Shown here: piece by piece, positions 3,657 through 26,873 of the stretch
Layout: each line of letters begins with the position of its first letter
Position numbering within the stretch: position 1 is the stretch's first letter
DNA from: an uncultured Bacteroidia bacterium
GTDB lineage: Bacteria > Bacteroidota > Bacteroidia > Bacteroidales > UBA932
Assembly: GCA_902761655.1 (NCBI GenBank)
Contig: CACWLD010000006.1
Location: forward strand, 38,809 to 102,808
Reading direction: 5' to 3'
Length of the DNA: 64,000 nt
Notes under the pieces: generated by a model
What the model was told of the DNA's origin: nothing
Database searches by the model: none
The model's input: the letters and a program-made list of their open reading frames with translations, nothing else
Position numbers and translations under genes: made by a program

Positions 3657-3686
3657 TTGCGGTATTTTGGAAAATATATAACTTTG
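3657..3686 (+). promoter_or_regulatory. Promoter of the pyr operon
   Basis: TTG at 3657-3659 and TAACTTTG at 3679-3686 are separated by 19 bases, a textbook Bacteroidetes housekeeping promoter. Transcription would begin near 3691, about 12 bases before the leader peptide start. Confidence 0.75.
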
Positions 3687-3702
3687 CAGAAACAAAGAAA
3701 CG

Positions 3703-3792
3703 ATGGAACAGATGACAAGCTGCATACAGTACTCTCCGGCTTCCGGCAAGGTATCGGCCAAACTGTTTCATTTTTATTTTTTATTTGGTTGA
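3703..3792 (+). CDS. Putative pyr operon leader peptide (29 residues)
   Basis: ATG at 3703 opens a 29-codon frame that stops with TGA at 3790-3792. The peptide begins MEQMTSC and ends KLFHFYFLFG. Its last eight sense codons before the stop are almost all U (TTT CAT TTT TAT TTT TTA TTT GGT). The stop codon overlaps the first two bases of the terminator stem. A U-rich stretch translated by a coupled ribosome directly before an intrinsic terminator is the layout of the Escherichia coli pyrBI leader, where low UTP makes RNA polymerase pause and lets the ribosome block the terminator. The frame and terminator are seen directly; the mechanism is inferred. Confidence 0.6.
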   Translation: MEQMTSCIQYSPASGKVSAKLFHFYFLFG

Positions 3793-3819
3793 CGGCTTTT
3801 GAAAGTCGTCATTTTTTTT
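3791..3819 (+). terminator. Attenuator (intrinsic terminator) before pyrC
   Basis: GACGGCTT (3791-3798) pairs with AAGTCGTC (3803-3810), an 8-bp stem with one G-U pair and a 4-base loop. It is followed by A and then eight T (3812-3819). The U tract ends only three bases before the pyrC ATG at 3823, so it lies in the 5' leader of the pyr operon rather than at a gene end, as expected for an attenuator. Confidence 0.7.
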
Positions 3820-3822
3820 GTT

Positions 3823-4941
3823 ATGGCCTTAAAGGATATAATAGAGATTCCCGCCCTTGCGGACGTGCACGTACACTTCCGCGAGCCCGGTTTCTCATAC
3901 AAGGAGACCATCCTGAGCGGGTGTATGGCGGCTGCGGCCGGCGGATACACCGCCGTGTGCCCTATGCCCAACCTCTCCCCCGCCCCGGACAGCCCGGAGA
4001 ACCTTGAGAAGGAGCTGGAATTGATCCGCAGGGACGCAATCATCGACGTGAGGCCGTACGCCACCATCACCGTGGGCCGCAAGGGCCTGGAGGTGGTGGA
4101 CGTGAAGGCCCTCAAGGGCAGCTGCGTGGCCTTCTCGGACGATGGCAGCGGCGTGCAGGATGAAGACGTTATGCGCAAGGCAATGAAACTCATTGCCGCG
4201 CAGGACTGCATCCTTGCCGCCCACTGCGAGGACAACTCCCTGCTGCGCGGCGGCTACATCCACGACGGTGAATACGCCCGCCTCCACGGCCACAAGGGCA
4301 TCTGCTCGCAGAGCGAGTGGGGCCAGATAGAAAGGGACCTGGCGCTCGCAGAGGAATGCGGCTGCGCCTACCACGTCTGCCACATCTCCACAAAGGAGAG
4401 CGTGGACCTGATCCGCCGGGCCAAGGCCCGGGGCGTGAACGTCACCTGCGAGACCGCTCCCCACTACCTTGTCCTGTGCCAGGACGACCTGCAGGAAGAC
4501 GGCCGTTTCAAGATGAACCCTCCCCTGCGCACTTCCGCAGACAGGGACGCCCTGCTGGAAGGCATCCAGGACGGCACCATAGATATGATAGCCACGGACC
4601 ACGCTCCCCACAGCGCTGAGGAAAAGTCCAAGGGACTTGAGGGCAGCGCAATGGGCATTACGGGCCTGGAAACGGCTTTCCCCGTACTTTACACCCATCT
4701 GGTTCTCAAGGGTGTCATATCTCTTGAAAAACTCGTAAATTTGATGAGCACCGCGCCTCGCAGGCGCTTCCGCCTTCCGGACGCCGGCCGCGACAGGGCC
4801 TTCTTCCAGGTTGGAGAGCCCTACGTCATAGACTCTTCCGCATTTTTCTCCAGGGGGCACAGCACCCCGTTTGACGGATGGGAGGTTTACGGCAGGTGCG
4901 TGAAGACCGTTTACAAAGGAAAGACAATATTTAAGATATAG
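3823..4941 (+). CDS. pyrC: Dihydroorotase PyrC (class I type)
   Basis: This enzyme closes N-carbamoyl-aspartate to dihydroorotate, step three of UMP synthesis. The 372-residue protein has the zinc motif DVHVHFREPG near residue 15, then PMPNLSP, HCED, HVCHIST (further His ligands), ETAPHYL, KMNPPLR and ATDHAPH with the catalytic Asp. It is shorter than typical class I dihydroorotases (about 420 to 430) because the small N-terminal beta region is minimal. I chose ATG 3823 (MALKDIIEIP). An upstream TTG at 3799 would lie inside the terminator hairpin. It is the first structural gene of the pyr operon, and carA starts 4 bases after its stop. Confidence 0.93.
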   Translation: MALKDIIEIPALADVHVHFREPGFSYKETILSGCMAAAAGGYTAVCPMPNLSPAPDSPENLEKELELIRRDAIIDVRPYATITVGRKGLEVVDVKALKGSCVAFSDDGSGVQDEDVMRKAMKLIAAQDCILAAHCEDNSLLRGGYIHDGEYARLHGHKGICSQSEWGQIERDLALAEECGCAYHVCHISTKESVDLIRRAKARGVNVTCETAPHYLVLCQDDLQEDGRFKMNPPLRTSADRDALLEGIQDGTIDMIATDHAPHSAEEKSKGLEGSAMGITGLETAFPVLYTHLVLKGVISLEKLVNLMSTAPRRRFRLPDAGRDRAFFQVGEPYVIDSSAFFSRGHSTPFDGWEVYGRCVKTVYKGKTIFKI

Positions 4942-4945
4942 GAAA

Positions 4946-6013
4946 ATGAAAAAAATGAAGCTTGTTCTCGAAAACGGGCAGGAGTTCCACGGCCTGGGAT
5001 ACGGGTCACAGAGTCCTGTCGTGGGGGAAATAGTTTTCAATACCTCAATGGTGGGGTATCAGGAAATAGCTTCCGACCCGGCCTACGCCGGACAGTTAGT
5101 AGTGATGACCTATCCGCTGATAGGCCAGTATGGTATTACCGACGACGACTTCGAGGCCCGCACCTTCTCCATCGGGGGCCTCATAGTTCGCGAGTACTGT
5201 GACACCCCGTCCAACTTCCGTTACACCAAAACCCTTTCGGAAGAGATGGACGAGCACGGAATTCCAATCCTCAGCGGGCCGGACACGCGTATGCTCACCC
5301 GCATCATCCGCACTGAAGGCAGTATGAAGGCGGCCATCGTGGACGAGTCTATGTCCACCGGCAATGCCCTGGTGCTCATTGCCCAGGCCCCTGTCCAGAC
5401 GGATCAGGTGGCCAAGGTCAGCTGCACCAAGAGATGGTTCTCACGCACGCCCCAGCACAAATATGACGTTGTGATAGTGGACTGCGGCCTCAAGCACAGC
5501 ATAGTGTCCGCCCTGAACCAGCGCGGATGCAACGTGACCGTGGTTCCCTACAACTCCACCCTGGAGGAGATCCTCTCCTTCGACCCCGACGGAGTTATCA
5601 TATCCAACGGTCCCGGCAGTCCGGACAACCTTCCGGGCCTCATAGACCTTGTAAACAACCTCAAGGGCAGGCTTCCACTGTTCGGAATCTGCCTGGGACA
5701 CCTTCTCATAGCCCGTTCCTACGGGGCCAAGACCTTCAAGATGCGCTGCGGCCACCACGGCGGTCATCCAGTCCGCAATATGGAAACCGGACGCATCATC
5801 ACCACCGAGCACAACCACAACTACGCGGTTGACGAGTCCTCTCTCAAGAAAACTCCTCTGGAGGTGGTCTACAAAGACGCTTCCGACGGCACCGTAGAGG
5901 GCCTCAAGTGCGCCGCGGACAAGGTTTACACCGTCCAGTTCTATCCTGAAGGAGCCCCGGGCCCGCAGGAGAGCGACTTTTTTGACAAATTCATAGCTAT
6001 GATGGAGGAATAG
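4946..6013 (+). CDS. carA: Carbamoyl-phosphate synthase small subunit CarA with a degenerate glutaminase site
   Basis: CarA normally hydrolyses glutamine and channels ammonia to CarB. The 355 residues show the CarA N-domain (GEIVFNTSMVGYQEI) and a class I amidotransferase domain with SNGPGSPDN and the nucleophile Cys in GICLG. Several normally invariant positions differ. GHQ is GHLL; the GGNHPV motif lacks Asn and reads GGHPV; QNHGFAVD is HNHNYAVD; and the catalytic FHPE motif reads FYPE (codon TAT). In E. coli numbering this removes Gln273, Gly313 and the triad His353, while the Cys and Glu remain. The subunit may no longer use glutamine well. It sits tightly between pyrC and carB. Confidence 0.92.
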   Translation: MKKMKLVLENGQEFHGLGYGSQSPVVGEIVFNTSMVGYQEIASDPAYAGQLVVMTYPLIGQYGITDDDFEARTFSIGGLIVREYCDTPSNFRYTKTLSEEMDEHGIPILSGPDTRMLTRIIRTEGSMKAAIVDESMSTGNALVLIAQAPVQTDQVAKVSCTKRWFSRTPQHKYDVVIVDCGLKHSIVSALNQRGCNVTVVPYNSTLEEILSFDPDGVIISNGPGSPDNLPGLIDLVNNLKGRLPLFGICLGHLLIARSYGAKTFKMRCGHHGGHPVRNMETGRIITTEHNHNYAVDESSLKKTPLEVVYKDASDGTVEGLKCAADKVYTVQFYPEGAPGPQESDFFDKFIAMMEE

Positions 6014-6016
6014 ACA

Positions 6017-9000
6017 ATGCCTAAGAGAACTGACATAAACAAGATAATGGTGATTGGCTCCGGCCCTATCGTGATTGGCCAGGCAGCCGAATTCGACTAT
6101 GCGGGCACCCAGGCCTGCCTCGCCCTCAAGGAAGAAGGCTATGAAGTTGTGCTGGTAAACTCCAACCCTGCAACCATTATGACCGATACCCATATGGCGG
6201 ACAAGGTCTATATGGAGCCGCTGGACCTGGAATACGTTGCCAAGATAATCCGCTACGAGAGGCCGGACGCCATTGTTCCCGGCCTGGGAGGCCAGACAGG
6301 CCTCAACCTGGCCGTGAAACTGGCGCGCAAGGGCGTCCTTGACGAGTGCCACGTAGAGATCCTTGGAACCTCATTCCACAGCATAGAGCAGGCGGAAGAC
6401 CGCGAACTGTTCAAGGAACTGTGCATAGAACTTGGCGAGCCGGTCATCCCTTCACAGATCTGCTACAGCATTGAAGAGGCCGTGGAGACGGCTCACAAGA
6501 TAGGCTTCCCGGTGGTTCTCCGCCCTGCCTTCACCCTTGGAGGAACAGGCGGTGGATTTGCCAGCAACGAGGCCGAACTCACCGAGATGATGCGCAACGC
6601 CCTTGCCCTCTCCCCCGTACACCAGGTACTTATCGAGAAGAGCGTAAAGGGATACAAGGAGATAGAGTTCGAGGTGATGAGGGACAAGAACGACACCGCC
6701 ATCACCATCTGCTCAATGGAGAACGTTGACCCCGTGGGTATCCACACCGGAGATTCCGTAGTGGTTGCCCCTGTACAGACCCTCGCGGACAAGGAATACG
6801 AGATACTGCGCGCAAGCGCCCTCAAGCTCATCCGCGCCCTCAAGATAGAAGGCGGATGCAACATCCAGTTCGCGCTGGATCCGCTTTCGTTCAACTACTA
6901 TATAATTGAGGTGAACCCGCGCGTGTCACGCTCGTCAGCCCTGGCGTCAAAGGCCAGCGGCTTCCCTATCGCCCGCGTAACTGCAAAGATAGCGGTGGGC
7001 CTCACCCTGGACGAGATCACGGTTGCCGGCGCCCCCGCCTGCTGCGAGCCTTCCATTGACTACATAGTGAGCAAGGTGGCGCGCTTCCCGTTCGACAAGT
7101 TCAGCGAGGCTTCCAACGAGCTGGGAACACAGATGAAGGCCACCGGAGAGGTGATGAGCATTGGCCGCACCTTTGAGGAGAGCTTCCTCAAGGCCATCCG
7201 CTCGCTTGAAATTGGCTGCTGCCACCTGTGGAAGCGCAAGTTTGAGTCGATGAGCAACGAGGAAATGCTCCAGTACATTGTCAAGTTCCCGGACGACCAC
7301 TACCTTGCAATAGCGCAGCTCATCCGCAACGGCGTGGATATCAGGCACATATATGACCGCACAAAGATTGATATGCTCTTCCTAGAAAAGATATGCAACA
7401 TTGTGCGTATGGAAGAGACCCTCAAGGCCAACCCCAAGGACAAGGATACCCTGTACCAGGCAAAGAGGATGGGATTCAGCGACAAGTTCATAGGCCAGCT
7501 GTGGGGAATGACGGAGAAGGAGACCATAGAGTACAGATGGTCCCTTGACATCAACCCGGTCTACAAGTTCATTGACAGCTGCGCCGCGGAGCACGATGCT
7601 GACGTCCCTTACTTCTACTCCACCTACGAGCAGGAGAACGAGACGGTGATAAGCAACCGCGAGAAGATCCTGGTGCTGGGCGCAGGCCCTATCAGGATAG
7701 GCCAGGGCGTGGAGTTTGACTACTCCACCGTACACGCCATCTGGGCCATCCGGGAGGCAGGGTACGAAGCCATCATCATCAACAATAACCCCGAGACCGT
7801 ATCCACAGACTACTCGATCTCTGACAAACTGTACTTTGAGCCTCTTACCGTAGAGGACGTGATGAACATCATAAGGATCGAGAAGCCAAAAGGCATTATT
7901 GTAACGCTGGGAGGCCAGACTGCCATCAACCTGGCGGGACCCCTGGCAGAGTTCGGAGTGCCCATCATTGGCACCCAGATCGATGCCATTGACAACGCGG
8001 AGGACCGCAAGCTCTTCGAGGCCATTATGCGCAAGACCGGAATCCCTCAGCCAAAGGCCAAGGCCGTGACTGACGTGGAGGAAGGCGTGAAGGCCGCGGC
8101 GGAGATTGGCTATCCGGTGCTCGTGCGCCCTTCCTTCGTACTTGGAGGCCGTGCAATGATGATAGTGGGCAACGAGGAAGCCCTCCGCCACTATCTGCAC
8201 AACGCAGTGGAAATCAACGAGAACTCCCCCGTACTTGTGGACAAGTACATACAGGGAAAGGAGTGCGAGGTTGACGCCATCTGCGACGGCAAGGACGTGT
8301 TCATCCCCGGAATAATGGAGCACGTGGAGCGCACCGGAATCCATTCCGGAGACTCCATAAGTGTGTACCCTTCATTCTCCCTGGACCAGGACGTCAAGGA
8401 CAAGATCATAGACTACACCGTGAAACTAGGCCTTGAGATTGGAATAGTTGGCCTGTTCAACATCCAGTTCATAGTTGACTCTCACAACGACGTATACGTG
8501 ATTGAGGTGAACCCCCGTTCTTCCCGTACCGTACCGTTCCTGTCCAAGTCCACAGGCGTGCCAATGGCCAAGATAGCCACCCTGGTAATGCTGGGACACT
8601 CACTCAAGGAGCAGGGCATAGACCAGGTTTACTACCCGGAGCGCCACAGGCACTACGTAAAGAGCCCGGCGTTCTCATTTGGAAAGATCAAGGGAATAGA
8701 CACATACCTCTCCCCTGAGATGAAGTCCACCGGCGAGGCAATCGGATATGACGATTCCCTGACCCGCGCGCTCTACAAGTCACTCCAGGCTTCAGGCGTG
8801 AGCGTGGTAAACTACGGAACGGTATTCGCCACCATAGCCGACAAGGACAAGGAAGAGGCTTTGCCGCTGATCCGCCGCTTCTACAACCTGGGATTCAACA
8901 TAGAGGCCACAAAGGGTACGGCCGAGTACCTCAAGAAGAATGGCATAAGGACCCGCAGCCTTGACAAGCTCAGCGAAGGCAGCAAGGACATCATCAGCAG

Positions 9001-9208
9001 CCTCCGCCAGGGCCACGTGAGCTACGTGATAAACACCATAGACATCAACCAGCACAGCACAAGGCTTGACGGATATGAGATCCGCCGCGCGGCCGTGGAG
9101 AACAACGTGACCATTTTCACTTCACTGGAGACCGTACGCGTGCTCCTGGACGTGCTGGAGGAGATTACACTTGGTATTTCTACTATTGACGACGAATACA
9201 ACCATTGA
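6017..9208 (+). CDS. carB: Carbamoyl-phosphate synthase large subunit CarB
   Basis: CarB makes carbamoyl phosphate from bicarbonate, two ATP and ammonia. The 1063-residue protein is full length, with two homologous halves. The first opens with [20 protein letters not shown] and the second, near residue 550, with [19 protein letters not shown]. Each half has an ATP-grasp domain ([12 protein letters not shown] in the second; [16 protein letters not shown] and [15 protein letters not shown]). The C-terminal MGS-like allosteric domain follows [21 protein letters not shown]. No key residue appears lost, in contrast to CarA. Its stop overlaps the pyrK start as TGATG. Confidence 0.97.
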
Positions 9209-9945
9209 TGGAAAAAGCGTTATACACCATCATTTCAAACGAACTGATAGCTGACAAGACGTACAGGATGCGCCTGGCGGGACCTACTGGCTCGCTCAAG
9301 CGCGCGGGGCAGTTCGTGAACGTGGCGGTTGACGGATTCTTCCTCCGCAGGCCGCTGGCGGCCCAGGAGTGGGATCCGGAAAGCCTGGCCGTGATATACA
9401 AGGTAGTAGGCCAGGGCACGGAGGTGATGAGCGGTATGCAGCCCGGGCAGGGCCTGGAGCTGCTGTGCGGGCTTGGCAACGGCTTTGACGCCGGTGCCTG
9501 CCGCCACAGCGCGCTCATAGCCTGCGGCGGGCTTGGAGCCTCTCCCGTCTTCAGCCTTGCAAAGGAACTCATAGACGCAGGCAAGAAGGTCTGCGTGGTG
9601 ATGGGATTCAACACCGCCGCAGACGCGGTCCTAGTGGACGAGTTCAAGGCTATGGGGGCGGAAGTTCACGTAGCAACGCTGGACGGCTCGCTGGGAGTGA
9701 AAGGCTTTGTGACAGACGCCATAAAGGCCGCGCAGCCGCAGTTCGATTACTTCTACACCTGCGGCCCTGCGCCAATGATGAAGGCGGTCTGCACCAGCCT
9801 GGAAGGCCCGGGCGAGGCCAGCCTGGAGGAAAGGATGGGATGCGGATGCGGCATATGCTACGGATGCACCTGCCATACCAACAGCGGAGCCAAGCGCGTT
9901 TGCGCTGACGGACCCGTATTCAAAAAGGAGGACATAATATGGTAA
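9208..9945 (+). CDS. pyrK: Dihydroorotate dehydrogenase B electron transfer subunit PyrK
   Basis: PyrK carries FAD and a 2Fe-2S cluster and passes electrons from PyrD to NAD. The 245-residue protein shows the flavin-binding FFLRRPLA, an NAD-binding region with CGGLGASPVFSLA and YTCGPAPMMKAV, and the C-terminal cluster ligands in MGCGCGICYGCTC with a last Cys in VCADGPVF. I chose ATG 9208, which overlaps the carB stop, over a TTG one codon upstream. With pyrD it defines a class 1B, NAD-linked dihydroorotate dehydrogenase. Confidence 0.93.
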   Translation: MEKALYTIISNELIADKTYRMRLAGPTGSLKRAGQFVNVAVDGFFLRRPLAAQEWDPESLAVIYKVVGQGTEVMSGMQPGQGLELLCGLGNGFDAGACRHSALIACGGLGASPVFSLAKELIDAGKKVCVVMGFNTAADAVLVDEFKAMGAEVHVATLDGSLGVKGFVTDAIKAAQPQFDYFYTCGPAPMMKAVCTSLEGPGEASLEERMGCGCGICYGCTCHTNSGAKRVCADGPVFKKEDIIW

Positions 9946-10844
9946 CGGCTGTAGATCTTTGCGGAGTAAGGCTGGCCAACCCGGTGATTCCGGCCAGCGG
10001 CACCTTTGGATTCGGCATCGAGATGGCCGGAGAATATGATCTGAACGTGCTTGGAGGCATTTCCCTGAAGGGTTCCACCCGCGAGCCCCGCTTTGGAAAC
10101 GAATGCCCCAGGATTGCCGAGACCCCGGACGGAATGCTCAATTCAGTGGGACTCCAGAATCCTGGCATAGACGCCCTCCTGAACGAGAAAATTCCGGCGC
10201 TGCGCAAGGTTTATTCCGGCGTTGTGATAGCCAACATAAGCGGCTTCTCGCTGGAAGACTACGTATATTGCTGCTCCCTGGCGGACAAATGCAAGGACAT
10301 TGACATACTGGAAGTTAACGTATCCTGCCCCAACGTTCACGGAGGCGGGATGGCGTTTGGCACATCCGCCTGTGCGGCAGCGGAAATAACCGCTGCGGTA
10401 AAGGCCGTGTGCACAAAGCCGGTGTTCGTCAAGCTGAGCCCCAATGTCACCGACATTGTATCCATAGCCAAGGCCTGTGAGGAAGCCGGAGCGGACGGAC
10501 TGACGCTGGTTAACACCCTTCTGGGAATGCGCATCGACATAAACCGCAGGGTGCCCATACTTGCCAACCGCTACGGCGGATTCAGCGGCAGGGCAATCTT
10601 CCCGGTAGCGCTGAGGATGGTGAACCAGGTGGCGCGCGCCTGCAGCATCCCCATTATGGGATGCGGAGGCGTCAGCAGCGCTTCCGATGTCATTGAAATG
10701 ATGATGGCAGGAGCCACCGCCGTGCAGGTTGGAGCGGAAAACTTACGCAACCCTTTCGCCAGCAAGGAGATTGTGGAGGAACTGCCAAAGATTATGCAAA
10801 AACTTGGAATAGAAGACATTAACGAAATAATTGGAGTGGTATGA
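9939..10844 (+). CDS. pyrD: Dihydroorotate dehydrogenase catalytic subunit PyrD (class 1B)
   Basis: PyrD oxidises dihydroorotate to orotate with FMN. In the 301 residues one sees [17 protein letters not shown] (active-site Lys), NSVGLQNPG, and [12 protein letters not shown] with the catalytic Cys typical of class 1B enzymes. Then come [33 protein letters not shown] and the phosphate-binding [20 protein letters not shown]. The start overlaps the pyrK stop, and pyrF overlaps its own stop, suggesting translational coupling. Confidence 0.96.
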
Positions 10845-11542
10845 GAGATGTAATCATTGCCTGTGACTTTTCAAGCGCGGAGCAGGTGCTTGCCTTCCTT
10901 GACAAGTTCAAGGACTGCGAGCGCAAACCCTTCGTGAAGATTGGAATGGAACTTTATTACGCGGCAGGACCGGAAATTGTCCGCGAGATCAAGCGCCGCG
11001 GCCACAAGATATTCCTGGACCTCAAGATGCACGACATCCCCAACACGGTTAAGAAAACCGCCCGGGTACTTTCCAACCTGGACGTGGATATGACAAACGT
11101 TCACGCTGCCGGCACCATCGAGATGATGCGCGCCGCGCTGGAGGGCCTTACAAGGCCCGACGGCACCCGTCCGCTGCTCATAGCAGTGACACAGCTTACC
11201 TCGACCAGCGAGGACAGGATGAGGGACGAACTGCTCATAAACGCATCAATGGAAGAGACCGTTGCCAAATACGCAGCCAACACCAAGGCCGCGGGGCTGG
11301 ACGGCGTGGTCTGCTCTCCGCTGGAAGCGGCGGCCATCAAGCGCCGCTGCGGAGCGGACTTCCTGACCGTTACGCCGGGCATCCGCTTTGCCGGAGCCGC
11401 GGCTGACGACCAGGTGCGCATAACCACTCCCGCCCGCGCCAAAGAGATTGGCTCGGACTTCATAGTGGTCGGCCGCCCCATTACCGCCGCGGAAGACCCC
11501 GTGGCCGCCTACAACCAATGTGTAAAAGATTTCGTATTGTAG
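10841..11542 (+). CDS. pyrF: Orotidine 5'-phosphate decarboxylase PyrF
   Basis: This enzyme catalyses the last step to UMP. The 233-residue TIM barrel has the N-terminal substrate Asp in IIACDFSS, the Lys in VKIGMELYY, and the catalytic [11 protein letters not shown] motif (Asp-x-Lys-x-x-Asp). Near the C-terminus are VTPGIRF and [14 protein letters not shown] for phosphate binding. The ATG overlaps the pyrD stop by four bases. Length and motifs are those of the bacterial type 1 family. Confidence 0.96.
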
Positions 11543-11545
11543 AAA

Positions 11546-12175
11546 ATGGAAAAGATAATAGCTAAGAACCTCCTGTCAATAGGGGCCGTATTCCTTCGCC
11601 CTCAGGAGCCGTTCACCTGGGCCAGCGGAATAAAGAGCCCAATCTATTGTGACAACCGCCTTGTCCTTTCCGCACCGCGCGTACGCGAAGTTGTGGAGCA
11701 GGCCATAGCAGATACTGTAAAGAGTAAATTCCCTGAAGCACAGATGCTTATGGGTACAAGCACTGCCGGAATAGCCCACGCGGCCATTGCCGCTTCCATC
11801 CTTGGAATGCCAATGGGATACGTGCGCGGAGAGGCCAAGAGCCACGGCCGCAACAACCGCATCGAGGGCCGTATGGAACCCGGCTGCAAGGTTGTGGTCA
11901 TAGAGGACCTCATCTCCACCGCAGGCAGCGCAATTGAGGTTGTGGAGGCCCTGCGTGAGGCCGGTGCCCAGGTACTGGGCATCGTCAGCATCTTCACCTA
12001 CGGAATGAAGAAGGGCCTTGACAGGCTGGCCGCCGCAAACGTGGTCAATTACTCACTCTCCAACCTGGACGCACTTGTAGAGGTTGCCGCACAGGAAGGA
12101 TACATAGACGCTGAGTGGAAGGAGCGCATCCTCAAATTCAGGGACAACCCGTCGGACGAAAGCTGGATTAAATAA
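11546..12175 (+). CDS. pyrE: Orotate phosphoribosyltransferase PyrE
   Basis: PyrE joins orotate to PRPP, giving OMP. The 209 residues carry YCDNRLVLS near residue 33, a flexible-loop segment GEAKSHGRNNRIEG, and the PRPP motif KVVVIEDLISTAGSAIEVVEALREAGA. It starts three bases after the pyrF stop and ends 12 bases before pyrB, so it belongs to the same operon. The family and function are clear. Confidence 0.96.
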   Translation: MEKIIAKNLLSIGAVFLRPQEPFTWASGIKSPIYCDNRLVLSAPRVREVVEQAIADTVKSKFPEAQMLMGTSTAGIAHAAIAASILGMPMGYVRGEAKSHGRNNRIEGRMEPGCKVVVIEDLISTAGSAIEVVEALREAGAQVLGIVSIFTYGMKKGLDRLAAANVVNYSLSNLDALVEVAAQEGYIDAEWKERILKFRDNPSDESWIK

Positions 12176-12187
12176 ACCCCAAGAGAT

Positions 12188-13264
12188 ATGAAGCATCTGA
12201 TTGACCCTACCGACTTCACAAAGGAGGAGATAGACGAGATTATTGAATACGGCGAGTACATTATTGCCAATCGCGAACTCTTCCGCGATAAGCTCCGCTA
12301 CCACAAGCTGGCCACCCTCTTCTACGAGCCCAGTACCCGTACCAGGCTCAGCTTCACCGCCGCAATGATGGAACTGGGAGGCAACGTGCTGGGATTCTCG
12401 GACGCCCGCAGCTCATCCGTAGCAAAAGGAGAAACCGTAGGCGACACCGCCCTCACGGTAGGCAACTTCGTAGACGTAATTGCAATGCGCCACCCTCTTG
12501 AAGGAGCCCCTTATATAGCTTCCAAAGTATCAAAGGTGCCAATCATCAACGCCGGCGACGGTTCCCACGCCCACCCCACCCAGACGCTGACAGACCTCAT
12601 AACAATCAAGCGCGAGCTTGGTCATATTGACAATATTACGATTGGATTCTGCGGAGACCTTCGCTTCGGACGCACCGTACACTCGCTGATCAAGGCCCTC
12701 TCACGCTATCAGGGCATTGACATTGTGCTCATCTCCCCGGACGAAATGCGTCTTCCGGACTACATCAAAAGCGATGTCTGCGACAAGCTCGGCCTCAAGT
12801 ACAAGGAAGTCCGCAGCATAGAGGAAGTCATTGGAGAGCTGGACGTGCTGTATATGACCCGCGTCCAGAAAGAGCGCTTCCTGGACGAGGAAGAATTCGA
12901 GCGCGTCAAGGACAGCTTTGTCCTGGACTGCGAGAAGCTAAAGGGCGCCAAGCCCAATATGGCCATACTGCACCCGCTTCCAAGGGTCAACGAAATCCGC
13001 CAGGAAGTGGACTCCGATCCCCGCGCAGCCTATTTCAGGCAGGTGGAGAACGGAAAATTCGTGCGTATGTCCCTCATATGCAAGCTCCTTGAATGGAAGG
13101 ACGACCCTTCACACACAATGCCTGCCCATCCGGAATACTTCCAGGACAACAGCAGGCATTGCAGGAACTCTAAATGTATATGCAATCACGAAAACGTACC
13201 TCCGCTCTTCCACGAAACTGAAGGCGGCACGGTACGCTGCGTTTACTGCGACAGCAAGGTGTAG
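12188..13264 (+). CDS. pyrB: Aspartate carbamoyltransferase PyrB with a fused PyrI-type zinc ribbon
   Basis: The first roughly 305 residues are the catalytic chain that joins carbamoyl phosphate and aspartate. Motifs are FYEPSTRTRLSF (carbamoyl phosphate site), MRHPLEGA, GDGSHAHPTQTLTD, GDLRFGRTVHSL and HPLPRVNEI. The protein then continues for about 45 residues with CRNSKC and, after a spacer, VRCVYC, a Cys-x4-Cys plus Cys-x2-Cys set like the zinc domain at the C-terminus of the regulatory chain PyrI. The nucleotide-binding PyrI domain is missing, and no separate pyrI is in the window. The zinc domain normally holds catalytic trimers to regulatory chains, so its role here is unclear. It is the last gene of the operon, and its 3' end overlaps the convergent neighbour by 22 bases. 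Confidence 0.93.
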   Translation: MKHLIDPTDFTKEEIDEIIEYGEYIIANRELFRDKLRYHKLATLFYEPSTRTRLSFTAAMMELGGNVLGFSDARSSSVAKGETVGDTALTVGNFVDVIAMRHPLEGAPYIASKVSKVPIINAGDGSHAHPTQTLTDLITIKRELGHIDNITIGFCGDLRFGRTVHSLIKALSRYQGIDIVLISPDEMRLPDYIKSDVCDKLGLKYKEVRSIEEVIGELDVLYMTRVQKERFLDEEEFERVKDSFVLDCEKLKGAKPNMAILHPLPRVNEIRQEVDSDPRAAYFRQVENGKFVRMSLICKLLEWKDDPSHTMPAHPEYFQDNSRHCRNSKCICNHENVPPLFHETEGGTVRCVYCDSKV

Positions 13265-26727: not shown

Positions 26728-26764
26728 AAATGTATCTGTGATTGATTAGTGGCAACAAAAAAAA

Positions 26765-26862
26765 GGGAAAGCTGGATACATCGCACCGCTACAACCTCTT
26801 ACCCTTGCTGTATTCCTACCCTGGGGGAGTTGGGAGGGAGCTGGTCGTGTAAGACTTTCCCC
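26765..26862 (-). ncRNA. ffs: Signal recognition particle RNA (4.5S, small bacterial type)
   Basis: On the minus strand about 98 bases read from GGGGAAAGTC to AGCTTTCCC and can close on themselves as a long hairpin. The apical part has the SRP domain IV signature: CAGG, a GGAA tetraloop closed by GTA/TAC, then CAGCAAGG on the 3' side, equivalent to the Ffh-binding loop of E. coli 4.5S RNA. GCGGTGCGATGTATCCAGC follows. A -7 box TATATTTG (26873-26866) sits right before the 5' end, and eight T follow the 3' end as a terminator. The call is from pattern recognition; no covariance model was run. Confidence 0.88.
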
Positions 26863-26865
26863 ACG

Positions 26866-26873
26866 CAAATATA
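26866..26873 (-). promoter_or_regulatory. -7 promoter box of the SRP RNA gene
   Basis: TATATTTG on the minus strand ends four bases before the first G of the RNA, which agrees with the spacing expected for a Bacteroidetes promoter. No TTG at -33 was found. Confidence 0.6.

Follow-up and report, generated by a model that had tools for sequence, protein, structure and literature searches.

Does the short reading frame that runs into a terminator ahead of the pyr operon of a gut Bacteroidales regulate that operon, and if so, which signal does it read? Pyrimidine genes are controlled in several ways elsewhere: Firmicutes pyr operons rely on PyrR-dependent attenuation, and enteric pyrC and pyrD on a hairpin at the start site. 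For E. coli pyrBI, the accessible text of two reports describes pause sites that couple leader translation to transcription, a coupling that prevents the terminator from forming (PMC4824070, PMC5021804). A first-pass annotation had interpreted the present locus as pyrBI-like coupled attenuation, and the comparisons reported here support that interpretation. On the evidence of sequence, we consider it likely that a translation-coupled, UTP-sensitive transcription attenuator of the pyrBI type controls the whole pyr operon.

A leader frame and terminator precede eight pyr genes

The window, that is, the whole stretch of 64,000 nucleotides that was analysed, belongs to contig 6 of a 2.0 Mb genome that is 93.7% complete. 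The leader and the operon consist of the following parts.

3657-3686, plus strand: Bacteroidota-type promoter TAnnTTTG, read directly (TTG at 3657-3659, TAACTTTG at 3679-3686)
3702-3711, plus strand: segment GATGGAACAG around the leader start codon, which in the prediction pairs with 3763-3772
3703-3792, plus strand: leader frame MEQMTSCIQYSPASGKVSAKLFHFYFLFG, 29 codons and TGA, read directly (ATG at 3703, TGA at 3790-3792)
3719-3758, plus strand: mid-leader hairpin from a predicted fold, candidate pause hairpin
3763-3772, plus strand: CTGTTTCATT on the 5' border of the U-rich tract, the segment with which the start codon is predicted to pair
3766-3788, plus strand: U-rich tract, proposed UTP-sensitive pause region (sequence reading; codon statistics of relatives)
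3790-3819, plus strand: intrinsic terminator, stem-loop and T8 (terminator scan; covariation in relatives)
3823-4941, plus strand: pyrC, first gene of the operon, identified
4946-13264, plus strand: carA, carB, pyrK, pyrD, pyrF, pyrE and pyrB, identified

The 29-codon frame with its U-rich end and its TGA overlapping the terminator stem was confirmed to the base, as were the terminator (8-bp stem, 4-base loop, eight T) and the pyrC ATG three bases further on. A promoter is present where the first-pass annotation had seen one; it is of the Bacteroidota type (TAnnTTTG) and not a sigma-70 consensus. In Flavobacterium this box occupies positions -12 to -5, according to the accessible part of PMC9723704, and transcription of the window leader would start near 3691. 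The stem-loop itself (3790-3811) has an additional outer T-A pair and is followed by the T run at 3812-3819; the leader TGA sits within the first stem bases of the 5' arm, and GTT separates the T run from the pyrC ATG at 3823. All eight genes of the expected pyr operon could be identified downstream of the leader, on one strand and either overlapping or separated by short gaps. Upstream and in the opposite direction lie purE, identified by its AIR carboxylase domain, and a purL-like gene, identified by an FGAR-AT linker domain only. The whole leader folds better than most shuffled sequences (z -2.46; 4 of 200 shuffles equally good).

The leader frame is retained across relatives

We searched 400 genomes of the genus for PyrC and found a match in 267. 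The 130 matches with E <1e-100, window included, form the orthologue set whose upstream DNA was read. A TAnnTTTG box stands 75-165 nt before a terminator in 49 of these; one that bears a tRNA-Thr was dropped, leaving 48 long leaders, the window among them. Read from the first ATG, 46 of the 48 leaders have a frame that stays open up to 15 nt or less from the stem, as compared with 6 and 23 for the other frames; the same holds for 10 of 11 cluster representatives, where block shuffling predicts 4.6 (P 7e-4). Counted from the start of the stem, the leader stop falls between -15 and -1 in 26 of the 48 and between 0 and +18 in 13; the remaining stops are located past the terminator (7) or earlier (2). 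In copies outside the training set of the covariance model described below (five of genus g16, four at pyrK, G367 and G225), the first-ATG frame is open in 11/11, but so are the two other frames in 6 and 7 copies. The pattern that would speak against the first-pass reading, a terminator kept without the short frame, is not what the long leaders show, and the layout recurs in relatives above chance with its frame retained.

That frame, U-rich codons and terminator are kept together across relatives, which the same annotation had proposed as a check, holds in the long leaders and fails in eight of the 130 orthologues (L115, L116, L117, L118, L130, L142, L149 and L158). These short leaders measure 47-67 nt from promoter to terminator, and by eye the U-rich tract has gone and little of the frame is left. 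They count against the general reading and suggest that the tract is not needed everywhere; they are perhaps decayed or differently controlled attenuators. At L015 (G234:C20, 2669-2742, minus strand), a tRNA-Thr gene and a terminator lie between the promoter and pyrC, possibly a different arrangement of pyr control.

Codon statistics point to selection for U

Among cluster representatives, T occupies 55% of third positions in the last ten codons of the frame; its share is 19% in the preceding codons and 14% in ten genes of the window. The Phe codons follow the same trend, with TTT:TTC at 17:3 in the leader tail vs 36:151 in the ten window genes. The leader peptides differ between clades, with no amino acid conserved (by eye), and repeated codons for a single amino acid, looked for across the leaders of relatives, were nowhere conserved. 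Because U is enriched at silent sites while the peptides vary by clade, it is the nucleotide and not the residue that appears to be kept, and these statistics indicate that the U-rich tract is selected for its U rather than for any amino acid.

Two hairpins covary

Covariation was assessed in an alignment of 45 leaders. Changes on both sides were found at 4 of the 9 terminator pairs and at 6/6 pairs of the mid-leader hairpin, in which 72.7% of cells are paired. The two elements together have 85.2% of cells paired, vs 26-54% when the structure is slid along the alignment. None of 500 shuffles reached the covariation score, the number of cells paired or the number of cells changed on both sides; further pair types were reached by 9/500 and pairs changed on both sides by 44/500. 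The majority pattern of the alignment is a hairpin around TCGGnnGnnCCGATGA, and in the clade of the window another hairpin takes its place. As the folding stability of leader interiors mostly does not exceed that of shuffles (z 0.2 for the window), our claim for the mid-leader hairpin rests on covariation. The alignment consensus, which covers alternative folds non-exhaustively, holds no mutually exclusive antiterminator hairpin.

The element stands at the head of pyr operons

We built a covariance model from the 45 leaders and searched it in genomes of the genus, the family and the order. The window's genome holds one good copy. Under stricter filters the model matched 58 of 400 genomes in the genus, a limited spread that weighs against the general reading; 45 of the 58 had supplied the training leaders. 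In the family sample it matched 19/299. The order sample (295 genomes) gave three matches, none convincing beyond the window itself: G808 was rejected as a terminator-only match and G921 because its match does not precede a pyr gene. Also set aside were G067 and a second G027 match from the genus search, which look like chance terminators, and the g4 matches in G558, G588 and G635 from the family search, which by eye do not stand before pyr genes.

Outside the training set, 21 genomes carry matches (13 belong to the genus and 8 to other parts of the family), and 16 of these matches precede a pyr gene, namely pyrC in 10 cases, pyrK in 4 and carA in 2. Six of the pyrC cases were already among the 130 leaders read, so that the fresh evidence consists of the other ten; family models confirm 2/2 carA, 4/4 pyrK and one pyrC, and the three remaining pyrC genes were named by eye. 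A second genus of the same family (g16) contributes five matches, all before pyrC or carA, and four orthologues that have no attenuator at pyrC carry one at pyrK. In most cases, the element precedes the opening gene of the local pyr operon, be it pyrC, carA or pyrK. Altogether, sequence comparison indicates that the element is real and that some members of the genus, as well as genomes outside it, have retained it; very probably it is a pyrBI-like attenuator. Among the 21 genomes, the remaining five comprise four weak matches and a complete leader before a non-pyr gene in G225. This attenuator-like leader (L266, G225:C78, 7297-7427) precedes a phospholipase A1 gene (Pfam PLA1).

A proposed mechanism with a start-codon gate

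From these parts we infer pausing, coupling, UTP as the signal and a gate at the leader start codon. When UTP is plentiful, RNA polymerase would cross the U-rich tract before any ribosome arrives; the leader start codon would base-pair, the terminator would fold and most transcripts would end near 3819. When UTP is scarce, polymerase would slow in the hairpin and the U-rich region, and the start codon would stay open longer. A ribosome could then translate the leader as far as its TGA, within the opening bases of the stem, and cover the 5' arm of the terminator, upon which transcription would continue into the eight pyr genes.

The gate is suggested by a predicted pairing in the window between GATGGAACAG at the leader start and CTGTTTCATT at the edge of the tract. 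The start codon would be open while polymerase dwells in the tract and be sealed by the 5' edge of the tract afterwards. We modelled co-transcriptional folding with 14 nt of RNA assumed to be held in the polymerase and with assumed 5' ends. The predicted chance that the window ATG is unpaired (3-base mean) was 0.45 to 0.86 with polymerase at 3760-3784; from 3788 on it was 0.00-0.04 per base. In a swap test on 25 representatives, pairing with the leader's own tail scored 13.96 vs 12.12 (sd 0.55) with swapped tails (P 0.0009), a modest gain; among control windows, shifts of -3, 18 and 24 showed nothing, and shifts of +6 and +12 gave P ~0.03. The result varied with clustering (P 0.11 at a coarse 65%, 0.0016 at 70% and 0.0009 at 75%), and we mark the gate as exploratory because it was reached after choosing among clusterings. 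With own tails, predicted openness started at 0.46 and ended at 0.18; with swapped tails, the corresponding values were 0.44 and 0.28 (Wilcoxon P 0.005 for the size of the fall and 0.01 for the late value). The E. coli pyrL control, a single sequence with assumed 5' ends, was predicted to go from 0.53-0.93 early to 0.01 late, save that one of the three 5' ends assumed gave 0.15 at the final early position. The predicted closing there involves CGGGAGGA before the ATG, which pairs with TCTTCCCG in the pyrimidine-rich tract.

Other readings of the leader

That the locus is an ordinary terminator beside a spurious frame, with no regulatory role, would agree with the frequency of terminator-like sites in the surrounding 14 kb, which is that of chance: 13 were found, 3790-3819 included, vs 12.7 expected from shuffles. 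This match to expectation means that a simple terminator scan alone is no evidence; the frame statistics and the covariation across relatives nevertheless make an element without a role scarcely credible. Were the leader peptide instead to sense charged tRNA for Phe or Leu, like the pheA or leu leaders, one might expect Phe to be prominent, and it is indeed the commonest residue in the last ten codons (20/100, cluster representatives). Yet by eye no residue is conserved across clades, the enrichment for U extends to silent sites, including the choice between Phe codons, and the genes controlled are pyr genes; we rejected amino-acid attenuation on the codon evidence and regard it as very unlikely.

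A protein or ligand might instead bind the mid-leader hairpin and so select the terminator or an antiterminator, in the manner of PyrR in Firmicutes. The hairpin around TCGGnnGnnCCGATGA is, after all, the majority pattern, and among the best 80 relatives from named genomes, the PyrC sequences nearest to that of the window outside Bacteroidales bear Bacillota-type titles. Against this, PyrR scored above the cut-off in 0/150 relatives (6/14 control genomes were above it), and in the window's own genome, 93.7% complete, the best pyrR score was 20.9 bits vs a cut-off of 138. The absence of a PyrR-binding element remarked on in the first-pass annotation held for the leader and for 18 related loci, with no Rfam match at gathering score. 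The hairpin moreover differs in the window's own clade, and a mere binding element would have no need of an open frame. PyrR control was rejected by these gene and RNA-family searches, and a bound regulator of this kind is unlikely. About as improbable is a leader whose translation is required but whose signal is not UTP, the start-codon stem sensing, for instance, how often initiation occurs, the temperature or the supply of ribosomes, with the U-rich tract serving mainly to build that stem. The predicted pairing of the start codon with the tract edge and the existence of short leaders without a tract would suit such a device, whereas the U enrichment spans the last ten codons, past the paired segment, and the element precedes pyr genes in most cases.

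A start-codon hairpin at pyrC in other relatives

Fifteen of the 130 orthologues, from sister species, have no attenuator, and their pyrC starts seven bases past the promoter TTTG, inside a hairpin whose common form is CCGATGAA...TTCATACGG.

Start-codon hairpin loci: L008, L010, L011, L013, L016, L017, L020, L022, L024, L164, L174, L184, L195, L197 and L210

An in-frame ATG lies 4-10 nt after TTTG in 19 orthologues, with Ser-Tyr-Gly near the start in 15. The Ser codon is TCA in 15/15 of these starts vs 39/313 Ser codons in ten window genes. The outermost pair of the hairpin varies in a compensatory manner (C-G in 7, T-G in 4, T-A in 3, unpaired in 1). The pattern was found in 9/300 genomes, 9/9 times at pyrC, with 0 matches in the reversed control; the window's genome has no match. 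Transcription would begin in the CCG of the hairpin, because TAnnTTTG lies at -12 to -5 in the accessible part of PMC9723704. The 15 relatives are like enteric pyrC in having the start codon within a 5'-end hairpin just past the promoter, and we regard this resemblance to enteric start-site control as a lead. In L009 and L014, pyrC likely has a GTG start directly 3' of a short hairpin, AAGATT...AATCTT, at what would be the 5' end, perhaps a third variant.

Relation to known attenuators

The likeness to E. coli pyrBI extends over the whole layout, in which a leader frame, a hairpin followed by a pyrimidine-rich tract, and a terminator precede pyr genes. The distance from ATG to stem start is 88 nt in E. 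coli pyrL and 87 nt in the window, both have an 8-bp stem, a 4-base loop and T8, and in both the leader start region is predicted to close once polymerase has passed the tract. The pyrL frame, however, is 44 codons long and continues across the terminator as far as the edge of pyrB, whereas the window frame stops at the first stem bases; run-through like that of pyrL occurs in 7/48 long leaders. The predicted pairing in E. coli involves the Shine-Dalgarno site, and a similar motif (GGAG, GAGG or AGGA) precedes the ATG in 2/25 representatives. The E. coli attenuator precedes pyrBI, and that of the window eight pyr genes. By eye, the window leader peptide and the enteric pyrL peptide differ. Common descent with enteric pyrL looks unlikely on this comparison, and the window attenuator is probably a new variant in Bacteroidales, convergent with E. 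coli pyrBI.

With the PyrR system of Firmicutes the window shares attenuation ahead of a complete pyr operon; it differs in that no PyrR scores above the cut-off, no Rfam family matches the leader and a translated leader is indicated. Amino-acid leader attenuators also have a short translated leader and a terminator, but the window has no conserved sensor codon and the genes are pyr genes. Leader-peptide attenuation has been suggested for amino-acid operons of Flavobacterium psychrophilum, as the accessible text of PMC9723704 has it, so such leader control had already been suggested in Bacteroidota, and the accessible text of PMC7366714 notes short frames in long 5' UTRs of Bacteroides. Among the open-licence PubMed Central articles that literature searches listed, no title or abstract opening describes a pyr attenuator in Bacteroidota.

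If the proposed attenuator is real in all its parts, repressor-free, UTP-sensed control of pyrimidine synthesis would extend from enterics to Bacteroidales, and transcription and leader translation would be coupled tightly enough there for operon regulation. To our knowledge, such coupling has been little studied in Bacteroidales. Bacteria of this group mostly do without Shine-Dalgarno sites, and the leader would offer a native reporter for coupling in them. Timed closure of the start codon would be a testable addition to the textbook pyrBI model. In a wider and tentative proposal, which as a whole we hold to be possible but rather doubtful, the tract would be sensor and antisense at once, UTP would be read as time for initiation through a timed gate that also operates in pyrL, and two repressor-free enteric pyr controls would have re-arisen in Bacteroidales.

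Other observations in the window

Among Rfam families, only a Bacteroidales small SRP RNA reaches gathering score within the window, at 26761-26868 on the minus strand. At the end of the operon, pyrB (12188-13264, plus strand) carries a PyrI_C metal-binding domain at its C-terminus (Pfam); no other part of PyrI was hit, and therefore allosteric nucleotide control may be missing. Outside Bacteroidales, the best 80 PyrC relatives from named genomes mostly bear titles of Clostridia, Oscillospiraceae and other Bacillota, which suggests that pyrC or the whole operon was laterally transferred.
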